A DNA stretch of 45,358 nt from an uncultured Pseudomonadota bacterium (GTDB lineage Bacteria > Pseudomonadota > Gammaproteobacteria > Steroidobacterales > Steroidobacteraceae): contig CAIYLH010000128.1 in assembly GCA_903927005.1 (NCBI GenBank), forward strand, positions 1 to 45,358, in the 5' to 3' direction. Numbering within the stretch: the stretch's first letter is position 1; the number at the start of each line of letters is the position of its first letter. Positions 3,539 to 34,448 of the stretch are shown in pieces. A program made the position numbers and the translations under genes. The notes under the pieces were generated by a model that was given only the letters and a program-made list of their open reading frames with translations, made no database searches and was not told where the DNA came from.

Positions 3539-3543
3539 CGCGC

Positions 3544-4665: not shown

Positions 4666-4679
4666 GGGAGAGCGCAGCG

Positions 4680-10819: not shown

Positions 10820-10827
10820 AACCGGCC

Positions 10828-14062: not shown

Positions 14063-14096
14063 CTGGTCCATTCCCTGCCGCCTTGCGCGGTGCTAC

Positions 14097-14138: not shown

Positions 14139-14222
14139 ACAGGCGGGGGCTGGCCACGATACTCGACGCAAGGCGTCTCCGTCGACGCCTCGATTCAACC
14201 ACGCACCGATCAGGAGAGCACC

Positions 14223-15758
14223 TTGAACACGGCAGTCTCGACGCCTTCCTCACTTGCGAATGACCTGTCGCAGATTCAGCCTGCCAATAAGGCATTTCTG
14301 GCGCGACGCCACGGACTGCTGATCGACGGCACCTGGGTACCTGCCGCGAGCGGCAAGACCTTCGAGGTCCGCGACCCGTCCAGTGATGAGGTGATCACCC
14401 ACTGCGCAGAAGGCGACGCGGTCGATGCAGACCGGGCCGTGGCGGCCGCGCGACGCGCGCTCGAGGAGGGCGACTGGTCGCGGATGAAGCCAGTCGACCG
14501 CGAGCGACTGATGCATCGCCTCGCCGACCTGATCGAACAGCACGCCGACGAGCTTGCGGAACTCGAGGCGATCGACAACGGCAAGTCAGTCGTCATGGCG
14601 CGCTACGTCGACATCAAACATGCCATCGACGTATGGCGCTACATGGCCGGCTGGCCGACCAAGCTCGAGGGCAAGACACTGCCGATTTCGGGCAACCTGG
14701 TCCCTGGCCAGGAGTACGCGGCATTCTCCACGCGCGAGCCTGTAGGCGTGGTTGCCGCGATCATCGCCTGGAACTTCCCGCTGCTGCTTGCCACGTGGAA
14801 GTGCGCGCCTGCGCTCGCTGCCGGCTGCACGGTGGTGCTCAAGCCCGCCGAAGAAACACCGCTGACTGCGATCCGCCTCGGTGAGCTGGTCCAGGAGGCG
14901 GGTTTCCCGAAGGGCGTGTTTAACATCGTCACCGGCGCGGGCCCCTCCGCGGGCGCGGCTCTCTCGTCGCATCCTGACGTCGACAAGGTAACGTTCACCG
15001 GTTCCACCGAAGTCGGTCGCCTGATCGTACAGGCGGCTTCGGGCAACATGAAGAAAGTCACCGTTGAGCTCGGTGGCAAGTCACCGGTCATCGTCCTCGA
15101 CGATGCCGACATTGACGCTGCGATCGCGGGCGCCGCCGGCGCGATCTTCTTCAACCAGGGACAGGTCTGCTGCGCCGGTTCGCGCTTGCTGGTGGCCAAG
15201 CGCCACTTCGAGCGCGTGGTCGAGGGCGTATCGGCTGCCGCCCGAGGCATGAAGATCGGCCCGGGTCTCGATCCGACTGCGCAGATGGGGCCGCTGGTAT
15301 CCTCCGTGCAGCGCGATCGCGTCTCGCGCTACCTGAGCGAGGGCCTGGCTGCCGGCGCCCGCGCACCAGCCGGCGGGACGGCCATGAAGACCCCCGGTTA
15401 CTACGTGACTCCAACCGTCTTCACTGACGTGAACTCGCAGATGTCGATCGTCCGCGAAGAAATCTTCGGGCCAGTGCTAGTGGCGCAGCCCTTTGACGAT
15501 CTGGCAGACATCGCCAAGCTCGCCAACGACTCGATCTATGGTCTGGGCGCCAGCATCTGGACGAGCGATGTAGGCAAGGTCTTCCGCCTGGCCTCTAAGC
15601 TCAAGGCAGGCTCCGTCTGGGTCAATTGCCACACCGTACTCGACCCGTGCATGCCATTTGGCGGCTACAAGCAGTCCGGCTGGGGCCGGGAACTGGGCGG
15701 GGAGGCGGTCCATTCGTACCTGGAAAGCAAGTCCTTGTGCATCAACATCACCGGATGA
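14223..15758 (+). CDS. NAD(P)+-dependent aldehyde dehydrogenase
   Basis: Oxidises an aldehyde to the carboxylate, presumably the product released by the amine dehydrogenase encoded downstream. The protein is 511 residues, with the family motifs VVAAIIAWNFP, the general base Glu282 (VTVELGGKSP), the nucleophile Cys316 (NQGQVCCAGS) and a C-terminal PFGGYKQSGWGRELG. The start appears to be a TTG at 14223, because AGGAG (14212-14216) sits 6 bp before it. Upstream in-frame codons run into the promoter region, and no closer ATG or GTG exists. The gene is divergent from the response regulator. A strong hairpin follows before the TonB-dependent receptor. Substrate specificity is not determined by these motifs. 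Confidence 0.94.
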   Translation: MNTAVSTPSSLANDLSQIQPANKAFLARRHGLLIDGTWVPAASGKTFEVRDPSSDEVITHCAEGDAVDADRAVAAARRALEEGDWSRMKPVDRERLMHRLADLIEQHADELAELEAIDNGKSVVMARYVDIKHAIDVWRYMAGWPTKLEGKTLPISGNLVPGQEYAAFSTREPVGVVAAIIAWNFPLLLATWKCAPALAAGCTVVLKPAEETPLTAIRLGELVQEAGFPKGVFNIVTGAGPSAGAALSSHPDVDKVTFTGSTEVGRLIVQAASGNMKKVTVELGGKSPVIVLDDADIDAAIAGAAGAIFFNQGQVCCAGSRLLVAKRHFERVVEGVSAAARGMKIGPGLDPTAQMGPLVSSVQRDRVSRYLSEGLAAGARAPAGGTAMKTPGYYVTPTVFTDVNSQMSIVREEIFGPVLVAQPFDDLADIAKLANDSIYGLGASIWTSDVGKVFRLASKLKAGSVWVNCHTVLDPCMPFGGYKQSGWGRELGGEAVHSYLESKSLCINITG

Positions 15759-15776
15759 CAGCATAAGCGCATAACG

Positions 15777-15823
15777 ACGAAAACAGCCGCTGCGCCTTTA
15801 CCGGCGCAGCGGCACGAAAACAG
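15777..15823 (+). repeat. Perfect 11-bp hairpin flanked by 10-bp direct repeats
   Basis: Between the aldehyde dehydrogenase and receptor genes, GCCGCTGCGCC (15786-15796) pairs perfectly with 15803-15813 across a 6-nt loop. The hairpin is bracketed by two copies of ACGAAAACAG (15777-15786 and 15814-15823). No T-tract follows on the plus strand, so it is not a standard intrinsic terminator there. On the minus strand a short T-rich run follows the stem. It could reduce read-through, stabilise the upstream mRNA, or be a protein site. Confidence 0.6.
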
Positions 15824-15889
15824 AATGAAGGCTCAGCCGCGAGCGTCAGGGCCCGAAGCAAAGCCCGACAACCGCAATAGGGGATTCGA

Positions 15890-18208
15890 TTGAACACAAA
15901 CACCACGAAGATCCATGCCCGCAGTTCGGCGGCGCTGGTGGCAGCCATCTCCGCCATCCTCGTTCCCACCCTCGCGCTCGCCGCGGCGCCAGCCGAGGTC
16001 AGCTCCATGATCGAAGAGATCGTGGTGACGGCCCAGAAGCGCTCCGAATCGCTGCAGAACGTACCGGTGTCGATCACGGCACTGACCAGCACGCAGCTCA
16101 GCGAGATGAAGATGGATTCGCCATCCGACCTCGTCACGCAGATACCCAACCTGCAGGTGAACGGCATCGTCGGCGAGGCCTCGCCGGTGTTCTCGCTGCG
16201 TGGCGTTTCAATGTTCGACTACAGCCTCAACCAGTCGAGCCCCGTCGCCTCCTACATTGACGAGGTCTACAAAGGCAACTTCGTGCTGTTCGGCGTCGAG
16301 ATGTACGACCTGGAGCGCATCGAGGTGCTGCGCGGCCCCCAAGGCACGCTGTACGGCAAGAACACGACTGGCGGGGCGATCAACTTCATCACCCACAAGC
16401 CTGGGTTTGAGACCGAAGGCTACGTCAAGGCGGGCGTCGGCAACTACAACCGGCAGGAACTCGAAGGCGCGGTGCAGGGCGCGATCATTGACGATCGCGT
16501 CGCAGCACGCGTCGCCTTCACCTACACCAAGGCCGACGGCTGGTTCAGGAACGTGCTCGCCGGCCATCCGGATCTCGAGGGTGTCGACCAGTACGGCATT
16601 CGCGCGAGCTTCCTGTTCAAGGCCAACGATGACCTGTCGGCGACCCTTCGCTGGTCGATGAGTCACCAAAGCCCGCAGAACTACGGCATCTTCGCCATCG
16701 CGGTGCCGCCTTCCACTGACCCTGAGAACCCGGTGACCTCCGGCGTTGGCGGCCTTTACTACCGCACCACGACGGGCAACTACGGCGATCCGGCACTCGC
16801 AAATGACCAGATCTCGCAAAACTACACACCGAAGCGCCACCAGGACAACAGCGCCATCGCGCTAACCATAGACTGGTCAGCCTCCGATTCGTACGCACTG
16901 ACCTCGATCACCTCCTGGGACGACGGCAGCCTGTTCAATCCGGAAGGGACGGACGGCGCGCCGATCGACATCTTCAAGATCCCGTACATCGGCAAGACCA
17001 AGCAGATGACCCAGGACCTGCGTGTGACCTCGCGCGGCAATGGCCCGTTCAACTTCATCTTCGGCGCGTACTACCAGAACGAGAAGATCTTCAATTCCAC
17101 CGAGAATCAGTTCTTTGGTGACGTTGCCTACGACTTCAACGCCGACGGAGTGATGAACGCGCAGGACTGCCTCGACAGCGCCTTCTACGGCTGCCGGTTC
17201 TACAACCAGTTCGACCAGACCCGCAACACCTGGGCGGCCTACACCGACGACAGCTACGCGCTGAATGAGCACTGGAAGATCCGTGGCGGCCTGCGCTACA
17301 ACCACGACAATGCATCGCAGAACAATGCCTTCGCCGAGGCTCGCAGCATTACCGAGGAGCCGTTGTTCCGGATCATCCCGGACCCGACGACATCACTAAC
17401 CGCAACGGCAAGCCAGGCCATTCGCAACGCTGCCTGGACGGGCCGACTTGGACTGGATTTCACACCCTCCAAGGACGCACTGTTCTACGTCAACCTGAGC
17501 CGTGGCTACCGCTCTGGCGCATTCAACGCGCAGTTCTTCTTCGATCCCAGCGAGTTCACCTCGGTCAAGCCAGAAACGGTCGATTCCTCGGAAGTTGGCT
17601 TCAAGACTGCGTGGCTCGGCGGCACGCTGCAGCTCGATGGCGCCATTTTCAACTACTCGTACAAGAACCAGCAGATGATTGACGTACAGTCATCCGGCCA
17701 CCAGCCTCTTATCAACCTCGGCAAGTCGACCATCCGCGGCGGCGAACTCGAGTTGGTTGCACGGCCAGTGGCCTCACTGACGGTTCGCGGTGGCCTCGGA
17801 ATCCTCGACGCCAAGGTCAAGGAAGGCCTGATCAACAATGGCGTGCAGGACATCGCAGGCAAGCAGCTGCCGAACGCACCGAAGGTCTCGGCGACACTCG
17901 CCTCGGACTGGGACGCCCTGCGGGTCTCAGGCTGGCGCATGACGCTGCACGGCGATATGAGCTACTCAGCCTCGCAGTACTTCGAGCCGGCCAACATCGC
18001 GCAGCTTCGCCAGGGCGGCTACACCCTGATCAACGCCCGCGTTACGCTGCACAATACCGACAGCCATTGGGATGTGTCGGCCTGGGGCCGCAACCTTGGC
18101 GACAAGTTTGCACTGACGGCGGGCGCGAACCTGCAGAGCCTCGGGTACTTCTACAGCCACCGAAATGCGCCACGCATGTTCGGCGTTGAGGGCACTTACC
18201 GGTTCTGA
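15890..18208 (+). CDS. TonB-dependent outer-membrane receptor
   Basis: Outer-membrane active-transport channel of 772 residues, energised by TonB-ExbBD. It has a signal peptide (hydrophobic core in [20 protein letters not shown]), then a TonB box ([11 protein letters not shown], near 42-52), a plug domain (about 55-165, including [20 protein letters not shown]) and a long beta-barrel. It ends in the typical aromatic residue (GTYRF). The start is a TTG at 15890 with AGGGGA 5 bp upstream, the second TTG start in a row. It lacks the N-terminal extension of transducer-type receptors, so it should be a transporter only. Its place between the aldehyde dehydrogenase and the amine dehydrogenase operon suggests it imports the amine or a carrier of it. 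A siderophore role is possible but not suggested by neighbours. Confidence 0.92.
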
Positions 18209-18232
18209 TCGTAAAGACGACAGGCTGCGAGC

Positions 18233-18264
18233 GTGGGCCCACCGGTCGCGGTGGGCCCACTTTT
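18233..18264 (+). terminator. Hairpin with short T-run; also two copies of a 10-bp palindrome
   Basis: GTGGGCCCACC (18233-18243) pairs perfectly with 18250-18260 across a 6-nt loop and is followed by TTTT, as in an intrinsic terminator after the receptor gene. Each arm also contains the self-palindrome GTGGGCCCAC, with the two centres 18 bp apart, so a tandem operator is an alternative. The next gene starts only 21 bp beyond the T-run. A separate promoter would therefore have to lie upstream of the hairpin. Confidence 0.6.
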
Positions 18265-18284
18265 CGCCGCCGCTTAGGTATGCA

Positions 18285-19982
18285 ATGACCAGCCTCCTGA
18301 CCGCCAGCACGGTAACCGGGGACCGTAGCAAGCCGCTGCTCGAGCTAACGGTCGACGCGGTGCTGCGGCGTGCGGTCGCGGCGGATCCCGCAGCGCTCGC
18401 ACTCGCGTCGCCGCAGCAGGGTGTGCGGCTGAGCTACGCCGAGACGGACCTGAAGGTTGAGCATCTCGCACGGGGCTTCGTCGCGGCCGGCCTGCAGCCT
18501 GGCGATCGCATCGGGATCTGGGCCCCTAACTGTGCCGAGTGGTATCTGACGATGTTCGCCGCGGCACGCGCGGGGCTGATACTGGTCAACGTCAACCCGG
18601 CGTACCGAACCGCCGAACTTGAGTTTGCACTACGCCACGTTGGCGCGCGCGCGCTGGTGTATTCGGCCAACCTCAAGAACAGCAACTACGTGCAGATGCT
18701 GCGCAGCCTGATCCCGGAACTCGATGCGGCCGTCGCCGGCAAGCTCACCTGCGCCTGCTTTCCTGAACTGCGCCTATTGATTCAGATCGGCGGAACCCCC
18801 ACGCCAGGCACAATCGCATTTCCGGAGGTGATCGCCGATGGCGCGCGCCGCGACGGTGCGCCGCTCGCCAAAATCGCCGCGGCGCTCGACCCTCACCAGC
18901 CGTACAACATCCAGTTCACCAGCGGAACGACAGGCCTGCCGAAGGGCGCGACCCTCACACACTTCAATATCGTCAACAACGCCTACTTTGTTGGCGAGGG
19001 CATGCGGCTAACCGCCGCCGACCGAATCTGCATCCCCGTACCGATGTACCACTGCTTCGGCATGGTGATGGGCGTGCTCGGCGCGGTCACGCATGGCGCT
19101 GCGAGCATCTACCCGAGCGATGCTTTCGACCCACTGGCCGTGCTACAGACGGTGGCGGCGGAGCGCTGCACCGCGCTGTATGGGGTGCCGACAATGTTCA
19201 TCGCCGAGCTCGGCCATCCACGCTTTGCTGAGTTCGATCTGTCGTCGCTGCGCACCGGAATCATGGCTGGTGCGCCATGCCCGATCGCGGTGATGCGTCG
19301 AGTGCTGGACGAGATGCACATGCCTGAGGTCACGATCTGCTACGGCATGACCGAGACCAGCCCAGTTTCATTTCAAAGCAGTGCGACGGACCCACTCGAG
19401 CGGCGTGTTAGCACGGTTGGGCGCATCCATCCCCACGTCGAGGTCAAGATCGTCGACGCCGCTGGCGAGGTCACTCCATGCGGCACTCCAGGGGAGCTTC
19501 TCACGCGTGGCTACAGCGTCATGCAGGGCTACTGGAACGACCCGCAGCGTAGCGACGAGGCGATCGACAGTGGCGGCTGGATGCATACCGGTGACATCGC
19601 CGTCATCGACGAGCAGGGTTACTGCAACATCGTTGGGCGCGTCAAGGACATGATCATCCGCGGTGGCGAGAACATCTCGCCGCGCGAGGTGGAGGAATTT
19701 CTCTACCGTCATCCGGCGGTGCTGGACGTTGCCGTCGTCGGCGTGCCGGACCTGAAGTACGGTGAAGCCGTGTGCGCCTGCATTCGCCTGCGGGAAAACA
19801 TGAGCGCCACCGAGGACGAGATTCGCGCGTTCTGCCAGGGCCAGATCGCGCACTACAAGGTGCCGCGCTACGTGCGTTTCGTCGACGGCTTTCCGATGAC
19901 GGTCACCGGCAAGATCCAGAAGTTCCTGATCCGCGAACAGCAGCGCAAGGAACTTGGCCTGGTGGAGGAGTCGCACGCATGA
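18285..19982 (+). CDS. Acyl-CoA ligase (FadD/ACSF2-like), first gene of the qhp operon
   Basis: AMP-forming ligase of 565 residues that activates a carboxylic acid to its CoA ester. Core motifs are [16 protein letters not shown], the YGMTET segment, [27 protein letters not shown] and the C-terminal [10 protein letters not shown] with the catalytic Lys. The ATG at 18285 has an AGG 6 bp upstream. An in-frame extension to 18165 would read through the end of the receptor gene and the hairpin, and is rejected. Its stop overlaps the qhpG start by 4 bp (ATGA), so it is translationally coupled to the amine dehydrogenase genes. It probably acts on the acid made from the amine by QHNDH and aldehyde dehydrogenase, for example isovalerate. 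That substrate is inferred. Confidence 0.93.
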
Positions 19983-21274
19983 AGATCGACGTCGCGGTCA
20001 TTGGCGGGGGACCGGCAGGCTGCACGGTAGCGCGCCGACTCGCGCGCGCGGGCATCGACGTGCACCTGTACGCCGCAGGCGGTGTGCATGGCTGCGAGGG
20101 GCTCTCGCGACGAACCCATGAACTGCTCCTCGAGGAAGGACTTCAGTCAGCGGCGCAGGTACTGCGCGGCCCGGTATCCCGCGGCGGCAGCTGGGGCGAA
20201 GGTCGCAGCGTGTCAGGATTCGAGTGGCTGGTTGATCGCGCTGATCTTGCTGCCGAACTGCGCAAAGCTGCCGTCGCCGACCGAGTCATCCTGCACGACG
20301 ACTCGGTGCTGGAAATCGAGCCGCGTGCCAGCGGCCTGCGGCTGCGCACTCGCGCCGGCGCCGACATACAGGCACGGTTCGTCGTCGACGCCCGCGGCCG
20401 CCGCGGCCCGGAAGAGCGTGGACCGCGCATGCTGGCCGTCGGCCAGCGTTTCGCCCGCCACACGCCGCTGGAGCCGGGCACCTCCATCCACGCACTGCCC
20501 TGGGGTTGGTGTTGGCTGGTCCTGGAGGGCAGGCGGATGTGGGTGCAACTGGTGAGCCGCACCCGCCAGCGCCATCCCGAGACCTGGCTCGCCACTGCCG
20601 CGGCGGCGCTACCGGCCCTGCGCCATGCACTAGAAGGTGCAGAACCGACCTGCACGCTCGTTGCCCGTCCCTCCCATGCCCGCCGGGCGATCCGACCCGG
20701 ACCGGACCATCTGTTCCGCGTCGGCGACGCCGCCGTTGGCCCGGATCCGCTTTCAGGCCAGGGCGTCTACGAGGCGCTGCGCGGGGCCCGCGTCGTCGCC
20801 GCAGCGGTAAGCTCAGCGCTGGCAGGCGAGAGCGTGGCGCTGGTGCAGAAATTTGTGGCCGACCGATACGCGACGATCTGGGAACGTTGTCTGGCGACCG
20901 CGGCGGACTTCTACGCCGAGAACATTCCCTTAGGGACCTTCTGGGCTGACACCGCCCGCGACTACCGCGCACTCGTCCCTGCAGCAGGCACCGCAGCTGC
21001 GGCGATCGAGCGCCGACCCGTCATGGACGGCGATCGGATCCTTGAACGCGAAGTTATCGTCACCGCCGCGCAGCCGCGCGGCGTCTGGCTCGTCGATGAT
21101 GTGCCGCTCGTCGACCTATTACATTATATTCAGCAGGCCGGAAACGCGACGCTGGCCGAGGCCGCCAGCGTGCTGGATCGTCCCCGGCCCGCGATCGCAG
21201 CTGCTGTACGCTGGCTCCATTCCGCCGGAGCGCTGTCGTCGCGCGCCGCCGAAGGTATTTCCGCAGGAGGTTGA
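19979..21274 (+). CDS. qhpG: FAD-dependent peptide tryptophan monooxygenase for CTQ formation
   Basis: Predicted flavin monooxygenase that hydroxylates the Trp of the QhpC subunit during synthesis of the cysteine tryptophylquinone (CTQ) cofactor. That role is established for Paracoccus QhpG. The 431-residue protein has an N-terminal FAD Rossmann motif ([19 protein letters not shown]; GxGxxG 9-14) and the second FAD motif [14 protein letters not shown] (249-262). A C-terminal region of about 130 residues (about 300-431) extends beyond the common hydroxylase core. It overlaps the ligase gene by 4 bp and is followed 4 bp later by qhpA. Identification rests on the flavoprotein motifs plus the complete qhp context. 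Alone it could only be called a tryptophan-halogenase or hydroxylase-like flavoprotein. Confidence 0.88.
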
Positions 21275-21278
21275 ACCC

Positions 21279-22862
21279 GTGTCGATCGGTCTACCAAAAA
21301 TGTTCAGGCTTAATGCCGCCCTGCTCGGGCTGGTCCTTGCCGTTGCGCCGTCAGCGCACGCCACCGACGCGCCCAGTGGACAGGCCCTGGTGCGCACCTA
21401 CTGCTCAGGCTGCCATCTGGAGCACGACGGCGCGTTCGAGCGCATCAACTCAATCCGCAAAACGCCCGAGGGTTGGGTCATGACCCTGTTCCGGATGCAC
21501 CAGGTGCACGGACTGGCCCTGCCGGAAGATGTCCACGACGGCATTGTCCGCTACCTGTCGGATACGCAGGGGCTCGCGCCCAGCGAAGCCGCACCGGCCC
21601 GTTTTGCACTTGAACGCCGACCGAACGCCAAGGACCTGGACCTCGGGCCGGAACTTGCGACCATGTGCGGCCGCTGCCACTCGCTGGCCCGCGTCGCGCT
21701 GCAGCGCCGCGATAGCGCCGACTGGCTCAAGCACATGCACTTCCATGTAGGCCAGTTCACCTCGCTCGAGTACCAGGCCTCCGGCCGCGACCGCCCGTGG
21801 TGGACCATCGCCTCGACCGAACTGCCGCCCAAGCTCGGCCAGCTGTTCCCCCTCACGACGCCTGCCTGGACCGCCTGGTCGCAGCGCGCTGCTCGTGACC
21901 TTTCCGGCAGCTGGGTCGTCGTTGGCCACGAGCCGGGCGGACGAGACCTGTATGGCACCGCGGAAATCGCCGCCGATGGCCATGGCGGCTACACGGCGCA
22001 CTACCGCCTGAAGGACACCGCAGGCACCAGCGTCGGCGGCGAATCGCATGCGATCGTCTACACCGGCTACGAGTGGCGCGGCCGCGCCGAGCTCGGCGGT
22101 CGGGCCTCACGAGAAGTTTTTGCCGCCTCCGAAGACGGCTCGCGCATCGTCGGGCGCTGGTTTGATCCCGAGCACACCGAGGAAGGTGGCGACTGGACCG
22201 CGGTACGCAACGATGCGCAGCCGCAAGTGCTGGCCGTGCTGCCGCGCGCGATGAAGGCCGGTAGCTCTGGCAGCGTCATCGTGGTGGCAACCGGCATCAC
22301 GTCTCCGGCGACACTGTCACTAGGGGCTGGCACGACGACGCGAGTTCTCGCCTCCGACGCCGGCGCGCTTCGTGCAAGCGTCGAGATCGCGTCTAACACT
22401 GCCACCGGCGCTCGCACCGTCAGCATCGCAGGTGCAAGCGGGCAGGGCGCGTTCGCGGTCTACGACAAAATCGACAAGATTGAGATCAGGCCAAGTTTCG
22501 GGATCGCTCGTGTCGGTGGCGGCAAGATCGCGGCAGTAACCGCCCAATTCGAGGCGATCGGTCAGGCGAAGGACGCCGCCGGCAACACTCTCGCGCTAGG
22601 CCCCATCGCGGCGGACTGGTCGACGCTACCGTACGATGCGGAAGCTGCGCGCACGCACGATGAAGCCTTTGGCGGCGGCATCCAGAACAGCGGCCGCTAT
22701 GTGCCTGCCGGCGCCGGACTCAACCCGGTACGAGAGTTCTCAGGAAACAATACGGCCAACCTCAAGGTGGTCGCGCGCGTTCGTGACGGAACCGCGACCG
22801 TCGAGGGCGATTCGCATCTGATCGTCACCGTGCAGCGCTGGATTACGACGCCGATCTACTAA
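21279..22862 (+). CDS. qhpA: Quinohemoprotein amine dehydrogenase alpha subunit (dihaem)
   Basis: Large periplasmic subunit of the enzyme that oxidatively deaminates primary amines. It carries two c-type haems that pass electrons from CTQ to a periplasmic carrier. The 527-residue protein has a signal peptide (hydrophobic core LNAALLGLVLAVAPSAHA). Two CxxCH sites follow: CSGCH (42-46) and CGRCH (130-134). Beta-rich domains (from about 200) come next. The start is GTG 21279, preceded by a perfect AGGAGG (21265-21270) at 8 bp. In P. putida the gene is called peaA. It is followed by the maturase qhpD. A cytochrome c maturation system must be present elsewhere in the genome. Confidence 0.95.
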   Translation: MSIGLPKMFRLNAALLGLVLAVAPSAHATDAPSGQALVRTYCSGCHLEHDGAFERINSIRKTPEGWVMTLFRMHQVHGLALPEDVHDGIVRYLSDTQGLAPSEAAPARFALERRPNAKDLDLGPELATMCGRCHSLARVALQRRDSADWLKHMHFHVGQFTSLEYQASGRDRPWWTIASTELPPKLGQLFPLTTPAWTAWSQRAARDLSGSWVVVGHEPGGRDLYGTAEIAADGHGGYTAHYRLKDTAGTSVGGESHAIVYTGYEWRGRAELGGRASREVFAASEDGSRIVGRWFDPEHTEEGGDWTAVRNDAQPQVLAVLPRAMKAGSSGSVIVVATGITSPATLSLGAGTTTRVLASDAGALRASVEIASNTATGARTVSIAGASGQGAFAVYDKIDKIEIRPSFGIARVGGGKIAAVTAQFEAIGQAKDAAGNTLALGPIAADWSTLPYDAEAARTHDEAFGGGIQNSGRYVPAGAGLNPVREFSGNNTANLKVVARVRDGTATVEGDSHLIVTVQRWITTPIY

Positions 22863-22882
22863 AAGCGCACCTGAACACACCC

Positions 22883-24648: not shown

Positions 24649-24656
24649 GCAGCGAC

Positions 24657-25751: not shown

Positions 25752-25764
25752 ACGCCAGGGCATC

Positions 25765-27423
25765 GTGGCGACACTCTGGCCGCACCTGCGGCCAGAGCTC
25801 GCTGCGCTGGTGGGGTCTGTTTTACTCGGACTGCTGATCGCGGTTTTGTCAGCCTCCCAACCGCTGCTGACACGCATGGTAATCGACGACGGCCTGATCG
25901 GCCGCCACTTCAACCAGCTTGCGTGGGCCTGCGCCGGAATGCTGGCCATCGCACTGAGCGGTACGCTGCTGGGCGCACTACATCGAGCGATCTACGTCCG
26001 TGCTTCAGGTCACGCCCTGTTCTCGCTGCGCCGGTCTCTCTACGCACACCTGATGCGCGTATCCCCGCGCAGGCTCAGCACGATTCCGGTTGGCGATTTG
26101 GTGACGCGCCTCGATGGAGACGTCGCAGAAGTCCAGCGCTTCGGAACAGATTCGGCGGCGACCTTCATCAGCAGCCTGCTGATGCTGCTGGTCGTTAGCG
26201 CCGTAATGCTGCGCCTGTCTTGGCGCCTGTGCGTGCTGGTCCTGGCACTGTTGCCACTGCAGCTACTCGTGCGCCACTACGCCCGCCCGTCGATTGAGCG
26301 CTCAACTCGATCGGTACGCGAAGCCGCCAGCGGCATCAGCGGCTTCCTGATCGAGACCCTTGCCGGCGCTCGCGCCGTGCAGGCCGCAGCGGCGCAACGC
26401 CTCGAGGACGAACGACTCGGCGTGCTTGGCGATCACTACCTGTCACGCGTCATCCGCGCGCAACTGGTCGCCTATGCGACCAGTGGCGTTGCTGGTTTTC
26501 TTGGCAACCTCGCCACGGCAGCCGTATTCCTGCTCGGCGGCTGGTACGTGCTGCACGATGCGCTGAGCGTGGGCACGCTGGTGGCCTACGTCAGCTACCT
26601 CGGCCGCAGCGCGGGGTCGGCATCCTCTCTGGTTGGCCTGTATACCGGCTACCAGCGGGCGAAGGTCAGTTTAGAGCGACTGGGCGACCTCTCCAGACTG
26701 CCTGTCGTGCCGGACTCACCGGACGCGCTCGAGCTGCCTGCCACTGCACGCGGTGACCTGCGCCTGCAGGCGGTCACCGTACGGGCAGGGCGCGAGGGCA
26801 GCCCGGTGCTGGACGGCGTCGACCTGCAGATCGATGCGGGCACCAAGCTGGTACTCAGCGGCATTTCGGGGGCCGGAAAATCGACGCTGACCGACGTCCT
26901 GCGGCGGTTCCTCGATCCCGACGAAGGAACGGTATGGCTGGATGGGACGCTACTGACGCGCTACCGGCTCGACGACGTACGGCGACGAATCGTCGTTGTT
27001 GAGCACTCTCCCATGCTGTTCCGCGGCTCCATTCTCGACAACCTGCGCTATGGCCACCCCACTGCCAGCGACGACGCGGTCCGCCAAGCCGCGCTCCGCG
27101 CAGGCATCGACGGGTTCGTCCGCGAACTGCCTGATGGCTACGACACGCAGGTGGGCGAGGGCGGGGCGGGCCTGTCGACGGGACAGCGGCAACGGATCGC
27201 CCTCGCACGGGCAGCGCTCGGGGATCCATTGGTCGTGATCCTGGATGAGGCGACCAGCGGGCTCGACCGCGAGTCGGCGCTAGCCATCCATCGCGCGCTG
27301 GACAGCTGCTTCGCGCACCGCACGCGGCTCGTGATCACGCACCAGGCGCAGGACATCGAACAGGTGGACCAGTGGTGGCTGCTGCAGGATGGCAAGCTCC
27401 GCCGTGGAACTGCCAGTGGCTGA
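25765..27423 (+). CDS. qhpF: ABC half-transporter exporting the gamma subunit
   Basis: Exporter-type ABC protein of 552 residues with the membrane domain (about 1-310, roughly six helices) fused to an ATPase domain (about 330-552). It has Walker A GISGAGKST (366-374), ABC signature LSTGQ (470-474) and Walker B VVILDEATSGLD (about 490-501). It has no N-terminal C39 peptidase domain. The separate protease QhpE is encoded next, overlapping by 35 bp. In Paracoccus the homologue is needed to move crosslinked QhpC to the periplasm. It likely acts as a homodimer in the inner membrane. The start is GTG 25765, with AGGG about 4 bp upstream. Confidence 0.93.
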   Translation: MATLWPHLRPELAALVGSVLLGLLIAVLSASQPLLTRMVIDDGLIGRHFNQLAWACAGMLAIALSGTLLGALHRAIYVRASGHALFSLRRSLYAHLMRVSPRRLSTIPVGDLVTRLDGDVAEVQRFGTDSAATFISSLLMLLVVSAVMLRLSWRLCVLVLALLPLQLLVRHYARPSIERSTRSVREAASGISGFLIETLAGARAVQAAAAQRLEDERLGVLGDHYLSRVIRAQLVAYATSGVAGFLGNLATAAVFLLGGWYVLHDALSVGTLVAYVSYLGRSAGSASSLVGLYTGYQRAKVSLERLGDLSRLPVVPDSPDALELPATARGDLRLQAVTVRAGREGSPVLDGVDLQIDAGTKLVLSGISGAGKSTLTDVLRRFLDPDEGTVWLDGTLLTRYRLDDVRRRIVVVEHSPMLFRGSILDNLRYGHPTASDDAVRQAALRAGIDGFVRELPDGYDTQVGEGGAGLSTGQRQRIALARAALGDPLVVILDEATSGLDRESALAIHRALDSCFAHRTRLVITHQAQDIEQVDQWWLLQDGKLRRGTASG

Positions 27424-28078
27424 ACGGCCCCGTTGGCGGGTCGGCGTCATTGACAGCTGCGGGCTACTGCACGATGCCATCGCAAGCGCTCGCTTCGTCG
27501 CAGACGAAACACGCATCGTCACGCGCGAGCCGACGAGCGATCCGACCGGTCACGGTACGCGTCTGTGCGCGCTGCTGACCCGCGGCAATCCCGGCGTCGA
27601 GCTTGTGCTGGCACAAGTCTTCGACCCCGCCGGCCGCACCAGCGCTGCCACGGTCGCAGCTGCCGTCGACTGGGGTGTGGAACAGGGCGCCCATCTTTTG
27701 CACCTGAGCCTTGGGCTCGCTGCGGACCGGCAGTGCCTGGCCGCTGCGATCGCGCGAGCGACGGAGCGCGGCCTACTGGTGGTGGCCGCAGTTCCCGCAC
27801 GCGGCCCGCTGCCGTTTCCGGCCGCCTATCCAGCAGTCATTCGTGGCACCGGGGATGCCCGCTGCCAGCCCGGCGAACTGTCGCGCCTGGACGAGCTGAC
27901 GTTCGGCGGCTGCCCGGCGAGCGGGAGGAAGGGGGGCGGCGCGAGCAGCGGGGCGATGCAGGTCACGCGGGCACTGACGCTCGCCAGTGCGCCTTGCTCA
28001 AACGTACAAGCGCTGCGGGTGCTGGCGGCCACAGCGAACTATCACGGCAGGGAACGACGCGGCATCGCCGCGGAGTAG
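27389..28078 (+). CDS. qhpE: Subtilisin-like leader peptidase for QhpC
   Basis: Small cytoplasmic serine protease (229 residues) predicted to remove the QhpC leader. The triad is Asp22 (VGVIDSCG), His55 (GHGTRL) and Ser186 (GGGASSGAM). There is no signal peptide or prodomain, as expected for the cytoplasmic QhpE family. The Asn that normally forms the oxyanion hole (VAAAGN in subtilisins) is not visible; the matching stretch is VVAAVPARG. ATG 27389 is taken, overlapping qhpF by 35 bp. In-frame GTG codons at 27404 and 27416 are alternatives. It is the last gene of the operon and converges on the GntR gene, 18 bp away. Confidence 0.9.
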   Translation: MASSAVELPVAERPRWRVGVIDSCGLLHDAIASARFVADETRIVTREPTSDPTGHGTRLCALLTRGNPGVELVLAQVFDPAGRTSAATVAAAVDWGVEQGAHLLHLSLGLAADRQCLAAAIARATERGLLVVAAVPARGPLPFPAAYPAVIRGTGDARCQPGELSRLDELTFGGCPASGRKGGGASSGAMQVTRALTLASAPCSNVQALRVLAATANYHGRERRGIAAE

Positions 28079-28096
28079 TCGCATCCAGCGAGCAGG

Positions 28097-28837
28097 TCAG
28101 TCCCGGCGTGGCGCGGGCACCGGTGAATCAACGTCGATCCCGCTGATCTCGAAGCCGCGACGAAAGTCGCGTACGTGCTTGCCCATCCAGTCACGGGCCG
28201 CAACCGCATCGTGGGCCTCGATTGCCGCGAGCACATGCTGCTGCGCTACTGCAATGCGGCCGCGAGCCGGAGGCGCACGGTCAATCATCACTTCCAGCGC
28301 CGCAACGAGCAGCAGTAGTAGCGGCTCCTGGGTCATCGGCAGAACGCGATTACCGCTGGCCGCCGCGACTGCACGGAAGAAGTCCGCAACCCCAGCGACC
28401 GCCTGCTGCGCCGTCTCATGGTCGGCAGCATAGCGACTGACGGCCGCACGCAACTGCTCGATGGCCGCAGCGTCAGCATGCAGCGCCGCCTCTGCCGCAA
28501 TCGGCGGCTCGATCAACTCTAGCGTCTGCCAGACCTCGCGCACAGTCACATCGTGTAGTGCGAGCGACTGGCCGACGCGACCGGCGATCTGGTCGGCGGC
28601 AGGACGAGTCACCACCATGCGCTTCGTGCCGCGACGGCGCGTCACGAGATCTGCGCTCTCCAGTTCGCGCAACGCCTCGCGGATCGTCGAGCGGTTGACC
28701 GCGAACTGCTCGGCGAGCTCCGTCTCCGGAGGCAGCGAATCGCCTTCGCGCAGCGTGCGATCGAGAATACGCGCCGCAATCGCCGTCGCGACGCGCCGGT
28801 AGCCGGGCTCGAAGCGAATCGGTTCGAACGCGGTCAT
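28097..28837 (-). CDS. FadR-subfamily GntR transcriptional regulator
   Basis: Regulator of 246 residues with an N-terminal winged helix (about 10-80; [25 protein letters not shown]) and a C-terminal all-helical FCD ligand domain (about 100-235). Two His residues of the usual FCD metal site are visible ([11 protein letters not shown] and KHVRDF). The FH dipeptide normally found earlier reads FFR, so the metal site may be altered. It overlaps the end of the isovaleryl-CoA dehydrogenase gene by 4 bp and is therefore co-transcribed with it. It likely represses the divergent liu genes in response to an acyl-CoA. Classical liu operons use a MerR-type LiuR instead. Confidence 0.92.
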
Positions 28838-30015
28838 TCACCCGTTCCGATCAGCTCACGCCCAATCAGCATGCGCCGCACTTCATTGGTTCCGGCACCG
28901 ATGTCGTAGAGCTTCGCATCGCGCAGCAACCGACCTGTCGGATAATCGTTCGTATAGCCGTTACCCCCGAGCGCCTGGATCGCCTCCAGCGCGACACGGA
29001 CAGCAGCCTCTGACGCCTGCAGGAAGCAGGCGGCAGCGGCGCGGCGGGTTTTTGTGCCCGCGTCACAGGCCCTTGCCGTGGCGTGCACGAAGGCACGGCT
29101 GGCGTGCAGACTGGTGTACATATCGGCAATCTTGCCCTGCATCAGCTCGAAAGTCCCGATCGGCCGACCGAACTGCCGCCGCTCGCGAACGTAGGGCAGG
29201 GTAACGTCCAAAGCCGCGGCCATGAGTCCGACAGGACCGCCGGAGATGACGACGCGCTCGTAGTCGAGCCCGTTCATCAGCACCGCGACACCACCATTCT
29301 CGGCGCCGAGGATATTCTCAGCCGGGATCTCGCAATCGTCGAAAACAAGTTCGCCCGTGGATGAGCCACGCATGCCGAGCTTGTCCAACTTCTGCGCGAC
29401 ACTAAAGCCCTTGGTGCCGCGCTCAACGATAAAGGTCGTGATGCCGCGCGCGCCGGCGTTGGGGAGCGTCTTGGCATAGACCACGACGACATCGGCATCG
29501 GGGCCATTGGTGATCCACATCTTGCGGCCGTTGAGCACGAAACGATCCCCGCGCCGGTCGGCACGAAGCGACATTCCAACGACGTCCGAGCCCGCACCGG
29601 TCTCGGACATCGCCAGCGACCCTACGTGCTGCCCGGAAATCAGCTTCGGCAGGTAACGGGCGGCCTGTGCGGGCGTCGCGTTCAGCCGCAACTGGTTGAG
29701 GCAGAGGTTGGAATGGGCGACGTAGCTAAGCCCCACGGAGCCGGAGGCGCGGGAGATCTCCTCCATCGCGATCACATGGGCGAGATAGCCCAGCCCCGAG
29801 CCTCCCAGCGACTCAGGTACCGTCATTCCCAGCAGTCCCTGCTCACCAAGCGCCGGCCACAGGTCGCGCGGAAAAATATCCGTCCGATCGATCTCAGCGG
29901 CCCGCGGCGCGATACGCTCCTGTGCGAAGCGATGGACCGCCTGGCGCAGCGCGATCATGTCCTCGCCGAGGCCGATATCAAGGTCATCGTCGTGCTGCGC
30001 GCCCAGGTTCGCCAT
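28834..30015 (-). CDS. liuA: Isovaleryl-CoA dehydrogenase
   Basis: Oxidises isovaleryl-CoA to 3-methylcrotonyl-CoA, the third step of leucine breakdown, with ETF as electron acceptor. The protein is 393 residues. Family-specific segments include [29 protein letters not shown] and [20 protein letters not shown]. The catalytic base sits at the isovaleryl-CoA dehydrogenase position, Glu253 in GLDYERVV. The classical position in the C-terminal domain is Ala374 ([11 protein letters not shown]), as in true members of this family. ATG 30015 has AGGA 7 bp upstream. It is divergent from the carboxylase genes and coupled to the GntR gene downstream. Confidence 0.96.
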
Positions 30016-30043
30016 GCTGGCATCCTATGTTTTGATCAGATAG

Positions 30044-30061
30044 TATAATTGTCCGACAAAT
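30044..30061 (+). promoter_or_regulatory. FadR/GntR-type operator overlapping a -10 element
   Basis: TTGTC-C-GACAA (30049-30059) is a perfect inverted repeat and matches the FadR-subfamily consensus TNGTNNNACNA at every defined position. Adding flanking bases gives AATTGTC-C-GACAAAT with one mismatch. It directly abuts a perfect TATAAT (30044-30049) on the plus strand and lies in the 63-bp divergent gap between liuA and liuB. A repressor bound here could block both directions. The adjacent GntR protein is the obvious candidate. Confidence 0.7.
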
Positions 30062-30078
30062 GGACAGGTGACCGCAAG

Positions 30079-31683
30079 ATGTTTCGCCTCAAGAGTCAGA
30101 TTGACGTTAAAAGCGCCGATTTTGGCGCGAACGTCGACGCAATGAGCGCTATCGTCGCCGATTTGCGAGAAAAGATACGACTGGCAGCTGCCGGTGGCTC
30201 GACCAAGGCCGTCGAGAAGCATCGCGACCGCGGCCGCCTGCTCGCGCGCGAGCGAATCGACCTCCTGCTCGACCCCGGCGCGCCCTTTCTGGAGTTATCG
30301 GCACTCGCGGCACATGGTCTTTATGGCAACGAAGTCCCCGCTGCCGGCATCGTGACCGGCATCGGCCGAGTGGCCGGCCGGGAATGCGTGATCGTCGCCA
30401 ACGACCCGACCGTGAAGGGCGGTACCTATTACCCGTTGACGGTGAAGAAGCACCTGCGTGCGCAGGAGATCGCCCGCGAGAATCACCTGCCCTGCGTCTA
30501 CCTGGTCGAGAGCGGCGGGGCGTTCCTGCCGGCGCAGGACGAGGTGTTCCCCGACCGGGACCATTTCGGACGGATCTTCTACAACCAAGCCAACCTGTCG
30601 GCTGCCGGCATCGCGCAGATCGCCGTGGTCCATGGCTCCTGCACCGCTGGCGGTGCCTACGTTCCCGCGATGTCCGACGAGAACGTCATTGTGCGCAATC
30701 AGGGCCAGGTGTTCCTCGGTGGCCCGCCGCTGGTCAAGGCCGCAACTGGCGAGGAGATCGATGCGGAGTCCCTCGGCGGCGCCGACGTACACTGCCGCGA
30801 ATCGGGCGTCTGCGACCACTACGCCGAAAATGACGCACACGCGCTCGCCATCGCCCGCAGCATCGTTGCACGCCTGCGCCCACCCTTGGACCGCGAGCCG
30901 CCGGTCGCGCCACGCGAACCGCTCTACGCGGCAAGTGAGCTCTACGGCGTAGTGCCCTCGAACCTGCGCAAGCCCTACGATGCCCGCGAGGTGATCGCCC
31001 GCATCGTCGATGGCTCGGAGCTGAACGAATTCAAGGCCCTGTACGGCACGACGCTGGTCACGGGGTTCGCCCATCTCGGCGGTTATCCAGTGGGCATCGT
31101 TGCGAACAACGGCATCCTGTTCTCCGAGAGCGCGCTGAAGGGCGCGCACTTCGTCGAACTGTGCGCGCGCGAGAAGATTCCACTGCTGTTCCTGCAGAAC
31201 ATCACCGGCTTCATGGTCGGACGTCGTGCCGAAGCCGGCGGCATCGCCCGCGACGGCGCCAAGATGGTCACCGCGGTCGCGGCAGCACAGGTCCCCAAGC
31301 TCACCCTCGTCATCGGCGGCAGCTACGGCGCCGGCAACTATGCGATGTGCGGCCGTGCCTATGGCCCACGGCTGATGTTCCAGTGGCCGAACGCCCGCAC
31401 CTCCGTCATGGGCGGCGAACAAGCCGCGACGGTGCTCGCCACCATCCGGCGCGACCAGCTCAAGGCTGCAGGCAAGCCGTGGACGGCCGCAGAGGAGGAC
31501 GCGTTCATGGATCCAATCCGACGCCAGTACGACCTACAGGGCCACCCGTACTACGCCAGCGCTCGCCTCTGGGACGACGGCGTCATCGACCCGATCGACA
31601 CACGCCGGGTGCTCAGCCTCGCGCTCGCAATGGTCCGTAATGCGCCGGTGGCGGATACCCGCTACGGCATCTTCAGGATGTAG
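30079..31683 (+). CDS. liuB: 3-Methylcrotonyl-CoA carboxylase beta subunit
   Basis: Carboxyltransferase subunit of 534 residues that moves CO2 from carboxybiotin to 3-methylcrotonyl-CoA, forming 3-methylglutaconyl-CoA. Diagnostic segments are [73 protein letters not shown] and the later [15 protein letters not shown]. These fit methylcrotonyl-CoA more than propionyl- or acetyl-CoA carboxylase. The geranyl-CoA carboxylase branch is similar but less likely beside liuA and liuC. ATG 30079 is preceded by AGGTGA at 8 bp. A TTG at 30049 would place the operator inside the gene and is rejected. It heads the liuBCD operon. Confidence 0.95.
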
Positions 31684-31686
31684 CCG

Positions 31687-32472
31687 ATGGACACCACTCT
31701 CCTCGAGTCCGAGCCACTGCCGGGCATCGTCCAGCTGACGCTGAACCGTCCCGCGCAGCGCAATGCGCTCGACGCCCAGTTGATCGCCGCGCTCGCTGCG
31801 GCGATCGCAACCCACAGTGCGCGCGATGCAACGCGGGTCATCGTGATTCGCGCCGCCGGGCGCGCATTTTGTGCCGGCGCCGACCTGACCGGAATGATCA
31901 CGCTAGGGCAGGCGCCGCTCGCTGAGAACATCGCCGACGCCCGCCAGCTCGCCGCGGTACTGCTGGCGCTGCGTCGCTGCCCGAAGCCCACGGTCGCCGC
32001 CGTCCAGGGCCCGGCCTTCGGCGGCGGCGTGGGACTTGCCACCGCCTGTGACATCGCCGTCGGCGGCGAGGAAGCGCAGTTTCGTCTACCCGAGGTGCGT
32101 CTGGGCATAGTGCCTGCCGTCATCTCGCCTTATGTGATCGAGGCCATCGGCCTGCGACAAGCACGCCGCTACTTCCTGAGCGGCGAGGCCATCCCGGCCG
32201 CTCGCGCTCGCGAGCTTGGTCTGCTACATGAAGTGGTCGACAGCGCCAGACTCGGCGCCGAGGCCCTGCGCATCGCAATCGAGCTCGCCGCTGGCGGGCC
32301 GCTGGCGCTGGCCAATTGCAAGGCGCTGCTCGACGAGGTCGGCCATCGCAAGCCAGACGATGCACTGACAGCGACGCTGGCAGAACGACTCGCGCACCTG
32401 CGCGCGACCGCGGAAGCGCAGGACGGACTTGAAGCCACATTGCAGCGTCGCGCACCAGGATGGGCCCGCTAA
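31687..32472 (+). CDS. liuC: 3-Methylglutaconyl-CoA hydratase (enoyl-CoA hydratase family)
   Basis: Crotonase-fold enzyme of 261 residues predicted to hydrate 3-methylglutaconyl-CoA to HMG-CoA. Family features are RAFCAGADLTGM, which forms the first oxyanion-hole contact, and GPAFGGGVGLATACDIAV, which gives the second. FRLPEVRLGIVPAVISPYV holds the catalytic-Glu region. Specific function is taken from position between the two carboxylase subunit genes, the conserved liuBCD order. It begins 3 bp after the liuB stop and its stop (TAA) shares a base with the liuD start (TAATG), so the three genes are translationally linked. Confidence 0.93.
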   Translation: MDTTLLESEPLPGIVQLTLNRPAQRNALDAQLIAALAAAIATHSARDATRVIVIRAAGRAFCAGADLTGMITLGQAPLAENIADARQLAAVLLALRRCPKPTVAAVQGPAFGGGVGLATACDIAVGGEEAQFRLPEVRLGIVPAVISPYVIEAIGLRQARRYFLSGEAIPAARARELGLLHEVVDSARLGAEALRIAIELAAGGPLALANCKALLDEVGHRKPDDALTATLAERLAHLRATAEAQDGLEATLQRRAPGWAR

Positions 32473-34448
32473 TGTTTCGTCGCCTACTGATCGCCAACCG
32501 CGGCGAAATCGCCGTCCGCGTTATCCGCAGCGCCCGTCGACTCGGCATCCACACGATCGCGGTTTACTCGGACGCTGACGCCGACGCCTGCCACGTTCGC
32601 CTCGCCGATGAAGCCTGGCACCTGGGCGCTGCCGCGCCACGCGAGAGCTATCTGGACGCCAGCAAGATTCTCGACATCGCCCGCCGCGCCGGCGCCGATG
32701 CCGTGCACCCCGGCTACGGGTTCCTGTCGGAACGCGCGGACTTTGCCGCCGCCTGTCGCGATGCTGGCATTACGTTCATCGGCCCGCCGGTTGCCGCGAT
32801 CGAGGCCATGGGCTCAAAAAGCGCCTCGAAAGAAGCCATGCAACGCGCCGGCGTGCCGGTGCTGCCGGGCTACCACGGCACCGACCAGGCTGCCGAAACC
32901 CTCGTCGCCGAGGCGCTCAAGGTCGGCTTCCCGCTGATCATCAAGCCCAGCGGCGGTGGTGGCGGCAAGGGCATGCAGATCGTCTTGAGCGCTGCTGACC
33001 TGGAACCGGCCATAGCGAGTGCGCGACGCCTTGCCGAGAGCGCCTTCGGCGACCCAACGCTGCTACTCGAACGCTATCTGCCCGCGCCGCGTCACGTCGA
33101 GGTACAGCTACTGGCGGACTCCGCCGGCACCGTCCGCTGCCTCGCGACACGGGATTGCTCGGTGCAGCGTCGTCACCAGAAACTGATCGAGGAGGCGCCG
33201 GCACCGCAGATCGCCGCCGACGTCCGCAGCCGCCTGCATGCAGCGGCTCGAGCAGTGGCGCACGCGGTCGGCTACCAGAACGCCGGCACTGTCGAGTTTC
33301 TGTACGCCGATGGCGAGTTCTGGTTCATGGAGATGAACACCCGCCTGCAAGTGGAGCACACGGTCACCGAAGAGGTGCTCGGTCTCGACCTGGTCGAATG
33401 GCAGCTGCGCATTGCCGCAGGAGAACTCCTGCCGGCCGACACCGCCGATGCAGAACCCTGCGGACACGCAATTGAAGTGCGCGTCTGTGCCGAAGACGCT
33501 GCCGCCGGCTTCGTTCCCAGCGCCGGCGCGCTGCGGTGGGTGCAGTGGCCGCACAACCTTCCCGGCGTGCGCGTCGATGCCGGCTTCGAGACCGGCGACA
33601 CCGTCTCATCGCACTACGACTCGCTGCTCGGCAAGGTCATTGCGCACGGCGCCAGCCGTGATGAGGCGATCGTCCGGCTGCGGCGGGCCCTCGCGTCACT
33701 GCGTATCGTCGGCGTCGACACCAACGCGGCGTGGCTCGCCGACGCGCTCGCGCACCCGACCTTCGCCGCCACGACGCCCACTACGCGTTTCGTCGCCGAT
33801 CATGGTGACGCGCTGGCGACTCCGGCATTACCAACGCCCGTCGAGCTTTGTCTCGCCGCGATGGCCTTCGTGTTGCGCAACCAGAACGCGGCGACTGAGC
33901 GCTCGCCATGGAGCGGCACTGACGCGTTTCGCATCGGACTACCCGCGCGACAGACGCTGTTATTGCGCTGCGGCTCGCACGAGCACGCGGTGAGCGTAGA
34001 AAGCTGCGGCGCCGACTGGCGGGTGTCGACCAGTGGGAAAGCGCACGCCATCATCGCAAGCCTCACCGGCACGACGCTGGCAGCGACCGTCGACGGCTGC
34101 CGCGCCGTCACGGATGCGTGGATCGATGGCGACCGGATGTCACTATGGCGTGGCGTGCACCGGCTCGACCTTGAGCTCATCGATCCGCGCCACGTCGACG
34201 TTAGCGCCTCGGTCCACGAAGGCGAGCTGATCGCGCGCCTGCCTGGCACCGTTGTGTCAGTTTCCGTTACGGTAGGCGACCTCGTCGCGGCGGGCGACAC
34301 GCTGATGGTCGTGGAAGCGATGAAGATGGAGCACGCGATCCTGGCGCCGAAGGCCGGACGAGTACTCACGGTGCAGTACGCCCGCGGCGACCGAGTCACC
34401 GAAGGCGCCGTGCTGGTTGAAGTCGGTGTCGAGGAGCCTACCGCCTAG
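32472..34448 (+). CDS. liuD: 3-Methylcrotonyl-CoA carboxylase alpha subunit (biotin-containing)
   Basis: ATP-dependent biotin carboxylase fused to its biotin carrier, 658 residues. It has the biotin carboxylase N-domain (LIANRGEIAVRVIR), the ATP-grasp loop (IIKPSGGGGGKGMQIV), the catalytic region VEHTVTEEVLGLDLVEWQL and a variable linker domain. A biotinyl domain ends with VVEAMKMEHAI, where the lysine biotinylated is about residue 618. ATG 32472 is used because it sits in a TAATG junction with liuC; an upstream in-frame ATG at 32460 lies inside liuC. It works with LiuB as an alpha6-beta6-type complex. HMG-CoA lyase (LiuE), usual as a fifth gene, is not encoded next to it. Confidence 0.95.
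   Translation: MFRRLLIANRGEIAVRVIRSARRLGIHTIAVYSDADADACHVRLADEAWHLGAAAPRESYLDASKILDIARRAGADAVHPGYGFLSERADFAAACRDAGITFIGPPVAAIEAMGSKSASKEAMQRAGVPVLPGYHGTDQAAETLVAEALKVGFPLIIKPSGGGGGKGMQIVLSAADLEPAIASARRLAESAFGDPTLLLERYLPAPRHVEVQLLADSAGTVRCLATRDCSVQRRHQKLIEEAPAPQIAADVRSRLHAAARAVAHAVGYQNAGTVEFLYADGEFWFMEMNTRLQVEHTVTEEVLGLDLVEWQLRIAAGELLPADTADAEPCGHAIEVRVCAEDAAAGFVPSAGALRWVQWPHNLPGVRVDAGFETGDTVSSHYDSLLGKVIAHGASRDEAIVRLRRALASLRIVGVDTNAAWLADALAHPTFAATTPTTRFVADHGDALATPALPTPVELCLAAMAFVLRNQNAATERSPWSGTDAFRIGLPARQTLLLRCGSHEHAVSVESCGADWRVSTSGKAHAIIASLTGTTLAATVDGCRAVTDAWIDGDRMSLWRGVHRLDLELIDPRHVDVSASVHEGELIARLPGTVVSVSVTVGDLVAAGDTLMVVEAMKMEHAILAPKAGRVLTVQYARGDRVTEGAVLVEVGVEEPTA

Follow-up and report, generated by a model that had tools for sequence, protein, structure and literature searches.

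A quinohemoprotein amine dehydrogenase cassette beside a leucine-degradation locus in an uncultured member of the Steroidobacteraceae, probably linked through isovaleryl-CoA

Why should a gene cassette for the oxidation of primary amines stand directly beside a gene block for the degradation of leucine? The question is raised by a 45,358-nucleotide stretch of DNA from an uncultured gammaproteobacterium of the family Steroidobacteraceae (contig CAIYLH010000128.1 of assembly GCA_903927005.1), in which the genes for quinohemoprotein amine dehydrogenase (QHNDH) and its maturation (qhp) are followed by a leucine-degradation (liu) block. This stretch, hereafter the window, makes up contig G000:C128 in full, and its source genome has 3.99 Mb and is 97.4% complete. 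A preliminary description of positions 14223 to 34448 had read the genes as a single, near-complete route from an amine to 3-hydroxy-3-methylglutaryl-coenzyme A (HMG-CoA). We favor, with a probability of roughly 0.6, a looser arrangement of two catabolic modules side by side that are linked by chemistry and not by a common switch, with isovaleryl-CoA as the joint if the amine is isoamylamine. To judge from the sequence, the likeliest composition is a general amine-to-acyl-CoA cassette next to a leucine locus, with isovalerate as the likeliest shared intermediate.

Positions 14223 to 34448 carry, in order, genes for an aldehyde dehydrogenase (ALDH), a TonB-dependent receptor, an acyl-CoA ligase, the qhp set (qhpG-A-D-C-B-F-E), a GntR-type regulator, isovaleryl-CoA dehydrogenase (IVD), the beta subunit of methylcrotonyl-CoA carboxylase (MCC), an enoyl-CoA hydratase, and the MCC alpha subunit; all of the genes named in the preliminary description were recovered where it had placed them. 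That description also had the ligase joined to the qhp operon by a 4-bp overlap, and the ligase stop and qhpG start codons indeed have ATGA in common (19979 to 19982). The GntR and IVD genes lie on the minus strand and are convergent with qhp, so the two form separate operons. The route is near-complete because the HMG-CoA lyase gene lies outside the window; it was found on another contig (G000:C59:72143-73066; NF004283, 345/246 bits, where paired figures here and below are score/NCBIfam cut-off), and the liu locus has no lyase of its own.

As in the qhp (pea) operon of Paracoccus and Pseudomonas, the structural and maturation genes are all present in the first module (9068 to 28078), and six of the seven qhp proteins exceed their equivalog cut-offs. 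These are, all on the plus strand, the flavin monooxygenase QhpG (19979 to 21274; NF049967, 282/240 bits), QHNDH alpha with two CxxCH motifs (qhpA, 21279 to 22862; TIGR03908, 525/274 bits; 377 bits to 1jmx), the radical S-adenosylmethionine maturase QhpD (22883 to 24331; TIGR03906, 681/453 bits), QHNDH gamma (qhpC, 24328 to 24648; NF037958, 163/50 bits), QHNDH beta (qhpB, 24657 to 25751; TIGR03907, 352/223 bits), and the subtilisin-like protease QhpE (27389 to 28078; NF049966, 187/165 bits). The remaining maturation gene, qhpF (25765 to 27423, plus strand), is assigned as an ABC transporter by PF00664 and PF00005 and by its position, and it adjoins qhpE in relatives. An alignment shows that QhpC keeps the cysteines, the acidic residues, and the tryptophan that are conserved at the cysteine tryptophylquinone (CTQ) site, for which we assume the roles and numbering of the residues.

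The second module (28097 to 34448) has IVD, MCC beta, hydratase, and MCC alpha in the same order as the Pseudomonas liu cluster. It differs in that IVD is divergent and is followed by a GntR/FCD regulator (28097 to 28837, minus strand; PF00392 and PF07729) with a conserved palindrome, and in that the lyase is encoded elsewhere; this regulator adjoins IVD in the liu loci of the genus. Comparison with solved sequences and inspection of motifs, including the catalytic glutamate proper to IVD, point to leucine-pathway kinds for IVD and both MCC subunits. The nearest solved proteins to IVD (28834 to 30015, minus strand) are isovaleryl-CoA dehydrogenases (4o5m, 595 bits; 1ivh, 505 bits), and it has LDYER and GAGT, presumably IVD-type marks, where a second acyl-CoA dehydrogenase of the window, ACD1, has YEGT. 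MCC beta (30079 to 31683, plus strand; the open reading frame [ORF] runs from a TTG at 30049, and the ATG at 30079 was judged the likelier start) has as its top match 9tps, labeled propionyl-CoA carboxylase beta (808 bits), and is closer to MCC (3u9r, 786 bits) than to geranyl-CoA carboxylase (5ikl, 491 bits), which disfavors a geranyl-CoA (atu) pathway in place of the leucine pathway. MCC alpha (32475 to 34448, plus strand) has an AMKM motif and is nearest to 3u9s (559 bits). The hydratase (31687 to 32472, plus strand) is assigned as a LiuC-like methylglutaconyl-CoA hydratase by its family and its position in the liu block, with NCBIfam scores under the cut-offs (NF005675, 232/350 bits; NF004227, 223/426 bits).

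Read as chemistry, QHNDH would oxidize short primary amines to aldehydes in the periplasm, and the ALDH (14223 to 15758, plus strand; StyD-like, NF045735, 685/850 bits; TTG start after AGGAG, with a longer ORF from 14118) would turn these aldehydes into acids. The ligase (18285 to 19982, plus strand; PRK12583 kind, NF009233, 821/832 bits, just below the cut-off) would activate the acids to acyl-CoAs, as perhaps would a second synthetase at 9068 to 10819. If isoamylamine is the amine, as we infer, the ligase would yield isovaleryl-CoA, which IVD, MCC, and the hydratase would carry to HMG-CoA, and the lyase encoded elsewhere in the genome would complete the route. These enzymes may thus together consume isoamylamine.

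The strongest link between qhp and liu is the ligase. Among named genomes, we took the best 80 of 544 qhpC loci, many of which end at contig ends. The source genome is not exceptional in having this ligase in its qhp cluster: at 29 of these 80 loci, qhpC has a ligase homolog of 50% identity or more no farther than 10 kb away, and four more of the 80 have matches of 33 to 39%. Fifty of these genomes were searched for MCC beta (47 positive at E ≤ 1e-120), and 38 of the 50 contain 43 homologs of the ligase (E ≤ 1e-140), 22 in a qhp setting, 12 in a liu setting, 1 in both, and 8 elsewhere. A homolog is present in the liu cluster of 13 of the 47 genomes, and these liu loci had not been selected for a ligase. 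A first tree, built from 45 ligases of the examined loci with minima of 50% identity and 75% coverage, requires at least three changes of setting on starred branches. The enlarged tree has 55 rows, the ten additions being the eight ligases from elsewhere and those of Thauera and Emcibacter; in it the liu setting requires four changes, all four forced by starred branches, and the qhp-side ligase of Thauera is the starred sister (100/99) of the Aromatoleum liu ligases. A placement of the ligase of the Rhodobacteraceae genome DSL-40 beside those Aromatoleum ligases in the first tree (88/91) was dropped, being unresolved after the ten rows were added. Consistent differences between the Pseudomonas qhp and liu ligases (7 versus 6 rows) are confined to 5 of 565 columns, with none in columns 225 to 350, where we presume the acyl pocket to lie. 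This pattern fits the activation of one acid, most simply isovalerate, in both settings. We take PP_4063 to be the liu-side ligase of Pseudomonas putida; the open-licence literature yielded no paper on PP_4063 and none on the acid substrate of this ligase family.

The preliminary description had proposed, as a check, to look for adjacency of qhp and liu beyond the one genome, and adjacency was found both in two relatives of the same genus (G253 and G193) and in other lineages. The surroundings of MCC beta were examined in all 47 genomes, mostly for 6 to 8 kb on each side, and at least 4 of the 47, in two lineages, have qhp genes no more than 10 kb from liu; the remaining genomes have no such adjacency within the surroundings covered. 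In DSL-40, qhpF-E-B-C-D-A, qhpG, the ligase, IVD, MCC beta, MCC alpha, HMG-CoA lyase, and the hydratase fall within about 19 kb. In Pseudomonas boanensis, Pseudomonas sp. BN417, and Pseudomonas resinovorans, qhpF-E-G is about 2.8 kb from IVD, and qhpA-D-C-B and the ligase lie elsewhere. The distance between liu and qhp is about 23 kb in Pseudomonas insulae, and in Thauera sp. 28 the ligase and an HMG-CoA lyase gene (449/246 bits) adjoin qhpF-E-G, with liu on a different contig. By our own estimate, random placement would give well under one adjacent genome in 47, and the recurrence is suggestive, although the lineages are few. Between liu and qhpF-E-G of P. boanensis lies a long ORF (L258:11518-13422) that resembles a regulator and on inspection looks like the sigma-54 type; a regulator of this type is likewise annotated before the qhp genes of a Cupriavidus plasmid. 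Plasmid records matching QhpD number 168, of which 41 match across at least 80% of its length, and the qhp region of that one Cupriavidus plasmid has no liu gene among its 23 listed features.

Closer relatives give a more divided picture. In an order sample of 396 genomes, qhpC scored above its cut-off in 26, the source included, and qhp flanks were taken for 23 of the other 25 (all except G277 and G237); 17 of the 23 were flanked on both sides of qhpC, by up to 20 kb each and less at contig ends (4.9 kb downstream in G190). Near qhp in these 17 relatives, the ligase (at least 50% identity) is found in 13 and the ALDH (at least 60%) in 10, and the commonly retained set further includes homologs of the second, AMP-forming synthetase (at least 50%) in 12 and of a FIST-domain protein, a hybrid kinase, a response regulator, and the TonB receptor in 11 each; the synthetase, FIST protein, kinase, regulator, TonB receptor, and ligase occur all together in 9. 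IVD and MCC beta lie within the qhp flanks of only two, namely, G253, with the same qhp-liu gene order as the window, and G193, in which about 5.8 kb separates qhpE from the GntR gene; a qhp cluster with the ligase and without liu inside the fetched flanks is frequent among family relatives. Across the 15 genomes of the genus, qhpC is present in 7 and MCC beta (at least 80% identity) in 10. Four genomes (G155, G161, G341, and G102) have a liu block without qhpC, G303 has qhpC with MCC beta unmatched, and G372 has both systems on contigs too short to judge adjacency. A class sample contained qhp in 2 of 369 genomes, the source included, too few for neighborhood counts. In three other genus members (L107:13807, L106:13822, and the G303 locus L056+L057 at 23797), an enoyl-CoA hydratase-like gene with 34 to 39% matches to the window hydratase follows qhpE and occupies the place of the GntR-IVD pair of the window.

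This distribution bears on a rather unlikely, though not negligible, explanation that the modules are accidental neighbors, the qhp cassette serving other amines (n-butylamine or phenylethylamine), with acids or acyl-CoAs that enter other routes. The liu genes are outside the fetched flanks in 15 of the 17 two-sided relatives, and the three adjacent species (window, G253, and G193) belong to one clade together with G155, so that a single origin suffices for them. In G155, ACD1 (7526 to 8704 in the window, minus strand) directly adjoins GntR-IVD, and the window has the 19-kb cassette at the same point. A tree of MCC beta, IVD, and MCC alpha groups G155 with the window and G253 (91/90, not starred) and leaves G193 outside; because G155 thus falls inside the adjacency clade, gain and loss of the cassette are indistinguishable, and G155 is unsafe as a proven preinsertion site, a later loss of the cassette fitting equally well. 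An accidental neighborhood would also agree with the convergent orientation, with the lack of a common operator, with the StyD-like ALDH, and with the description of qhp under an n-butylamine-inducible regulator in the part of one report available to us (PMC7876137). Against it stand the neighborhoods in other lineages and the ligase family common to both settings. It is further opposed by the absence of any PaaA or PaaC family protein from the source genome (97% complete), for which reason the standard phenylacetate route looks missing; by the routes known to us, aromatic amines would then stop at the acid. The phenylethylamine/phenylacetate version is only weakened by this absence.

Are the linked modules, as we prefer to read them, also switched together? 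The liu side has a candidate operator, TTGTCCGACAA at 30049 to 30059, between IVD and MCC beta. The pattern TTGTCSGACAA occurs exactly at this place in all nine genus liu loci scanned and in five of nine further family liu loci, with one mismatch in two others (DX2 and GL473) and no site in GL6 and GL1. The window has no other exact site, and ATTGTCSGACAA occurs exactly once in the source genome; sites with at most one mismatch number 12 there, the same as for a reversed control pattern (12). With up to three mismatches, the window holds 6 matches versus 12.9 expected, one of which (3 mismatches) lies inside the TonB receptor gene. In G253 and in G193, the liu palindrome is the sole site with at most one mismatch across the 40 kb surrounding qhp, and no palindrome site is present at qhp in G190, G332, or G303. 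Among 304 loci, one exact palindrome lies outside liu, in the qhp locus of Pseudomonas chlororaphis (L180:1324), and is taken as chance. We infer that the palindrome is an operator of the local GntR protein. The sites at 30049 to 30059 of the window, L093:5862, L041:5717, and L043:11479 suggest that a GntR/FCD regulator controls the liu genes in this family, where a MerR-type LiuR, the usual kind in other proteobacteria, would be expected. No regulator shared by qhp and liu was found, the predicted GntR site being at liu only, and the qhp cassette is probably under its own two-component/FIST system.

These results make a dedicated, co-induced isoamylamine-to-HMG-CoA pathway, as the preliminary description had it, quite improbable. 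In its favor, the gene order reads as a route, and DSL-40 has qhp, the ligase, IVD, MCC, HMG-CoA lyase, and the hydratase in about 19 kb. The lack of a common operator speaks against it, as do the retention in the genus of liu without qhp and of qhp without liu, the second synthetase and the TonB receptor, which have no obvious place in such a pathway, and the DSL-40 stretch without an ALDH homolog. The single route is partly supported, in that its chemistry fits, that the adjacency recurs, and that qhp and liu clusters have a ligase family in common; against its unity, qhp with the ligase is common in the family without liu, liu occurs without qhp in the genus, the predicted operator is at liu only, and the ALDH is most similar to phenylacetaldehyde dehydrogenase.

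Linkage by chemistry has its own difficulties, and the following observations weigh against it. The nearest solved structure to the ALDH is 4o5h, a phenylacetaldehyde dehydrogenase, and the 33.8 kb around the DSL-40 locus contain no ALDH homolog. No GntR-type site, the one site type sought, was found in the qhp cassette of the window, G253, or G193, and G190 and G332 have both systems on different contigs. The genomes in which adjacency was counted had been chosen for having qhp. The eight ligases from elsewhere are dispersed in the tree, with no more clustering than chance would give (7 changes, a number as low being reached in 163 of 500 shuffles), so the family extends beyond qhp and liu and has other uses. 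Among 295 genomes from the family of DSL-40, 8 carry qhpC; no liu cluster accompanies the six qhp loci other than those of DSL-40 and Paracoccus sanguinis, two of the six being on contigs shorter than 10 kb. Of these six, one has a partial match resembling MCC alpha and two have the ligase; P. sanguinis has liu on a separate contig from qhp.

The first cassette genes, which lie upstream of the ALDH, mark a departure from the qhp (pea) operon in that a FIST protein, a hybrid kinase, an ErdR-like regulator, and a TonB receptor accompany qhp in the window and its relatives. The cassette begins with the AMP-forming, MbcS-like acyl-CoA synthetase (9068 to 10819, plus strand; NF047394, 396/850 bits), followed by the FIST-domain protein (10828 to 11979, plus strand; Pfam FIST and FIST_C), a hybrid histidine kinase of the NahK/ErcS kind (11970 to 13415, plus strand; NF041832, 358/400 bits), and the ErdR-like response regulator (13409 to 14071, minus strand; NF041830, 148/390 bits), with all three NCBIfam scores below their cut-offs. 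The best model for the TonB-dependent receptor (15890 to 18208, plus strand) is likewise below its cut-off (TIGR01783, 184/223.5 bits). A PADLOC scan of the response regulator and the FIST protein gave only weak matches, for the regulator. In the parts available to us, three papers on ErdR (PMC8402216, PMC12997753, and PMC9927547) have no bearing on amines. Reading the window by eye revealed no ORF for an AraC-type QhpR, a negative that comes from inspection of the window alone, with no dedicated model applied. Four alphaproteobacterial loci (L151, L169, L172, and L174) have FIST, a NahK/ErcS-like hybrid kinase, and in some cases an ErdR-like regulator near qhp, the kinase being cut off or the regulator absent in some. 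Between the ALDH and TonB receptor genes, a GC-rich hairpin of 11 pairs (15786 to 15813; z, -2.97) has, on the minus strand, a tail rich in T. Another amine theme is present upstream, at 1485 to 7482, with an agmatine deiminase-like gene (306/382 bits), an N-carbamoylputrescine amidase above its cut-off (435/410 bits), and a polyamine ABC transporter (TIGR01187, 372/356 bits, above the cut-off; best matches to PotF, PotH, and PotI under their cut-offs).

The arrangement, in which a cassette for amine oxidation borders a locus for leucine degradation, is new, and its parts are known. Searches of the open-licence literature found no paper that brings methylcrotonyl-CoA carboxylase together with amine dehydrogenase, no description of isoamylamine catabolism via amine dehydrogenase and isovaleryl-CoA, and, by title, none on such a linkage in bacterial isoamylamine degradation with a dehydrogenase. 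The closest parallel is the isopentanol route of P. putida, in which a C5 relative of leucine is reportedly oxidized before it is activated. That route starts from an alcohol, whereas the route of the window would begin with the oxidation of an amine by a CTQ enzyme. From what was accessible of the KT2440 study, the C5 compound is drained through liu, and catabolism of isopentanol and isoprenol requires ivd:mccB:liuC:mccA (PMC10949508).

A broader possibility, which we hold tentatively and at somewhat less than even odds, is that isovalerate is a main physiological product of many QHNDH systems, that one ligase family shuttling between qhp and liu in alpha-, beta-, and gammaproteobacteria marks a recurrent linkage for the catabolism of isoamylamine, the amine of leucine, and that the window and DSL-40 represent its fully docked forms. 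Evidence on the natural substrate of QHNDH comes mainly from the amines that induce the enzyme or fit it in vitro (n-butylamine and others). A ligase family held in common with the leucine pathway and the repeated neighboring of qhp and liu suggest one particular, testable amine substrate for this enzyme.

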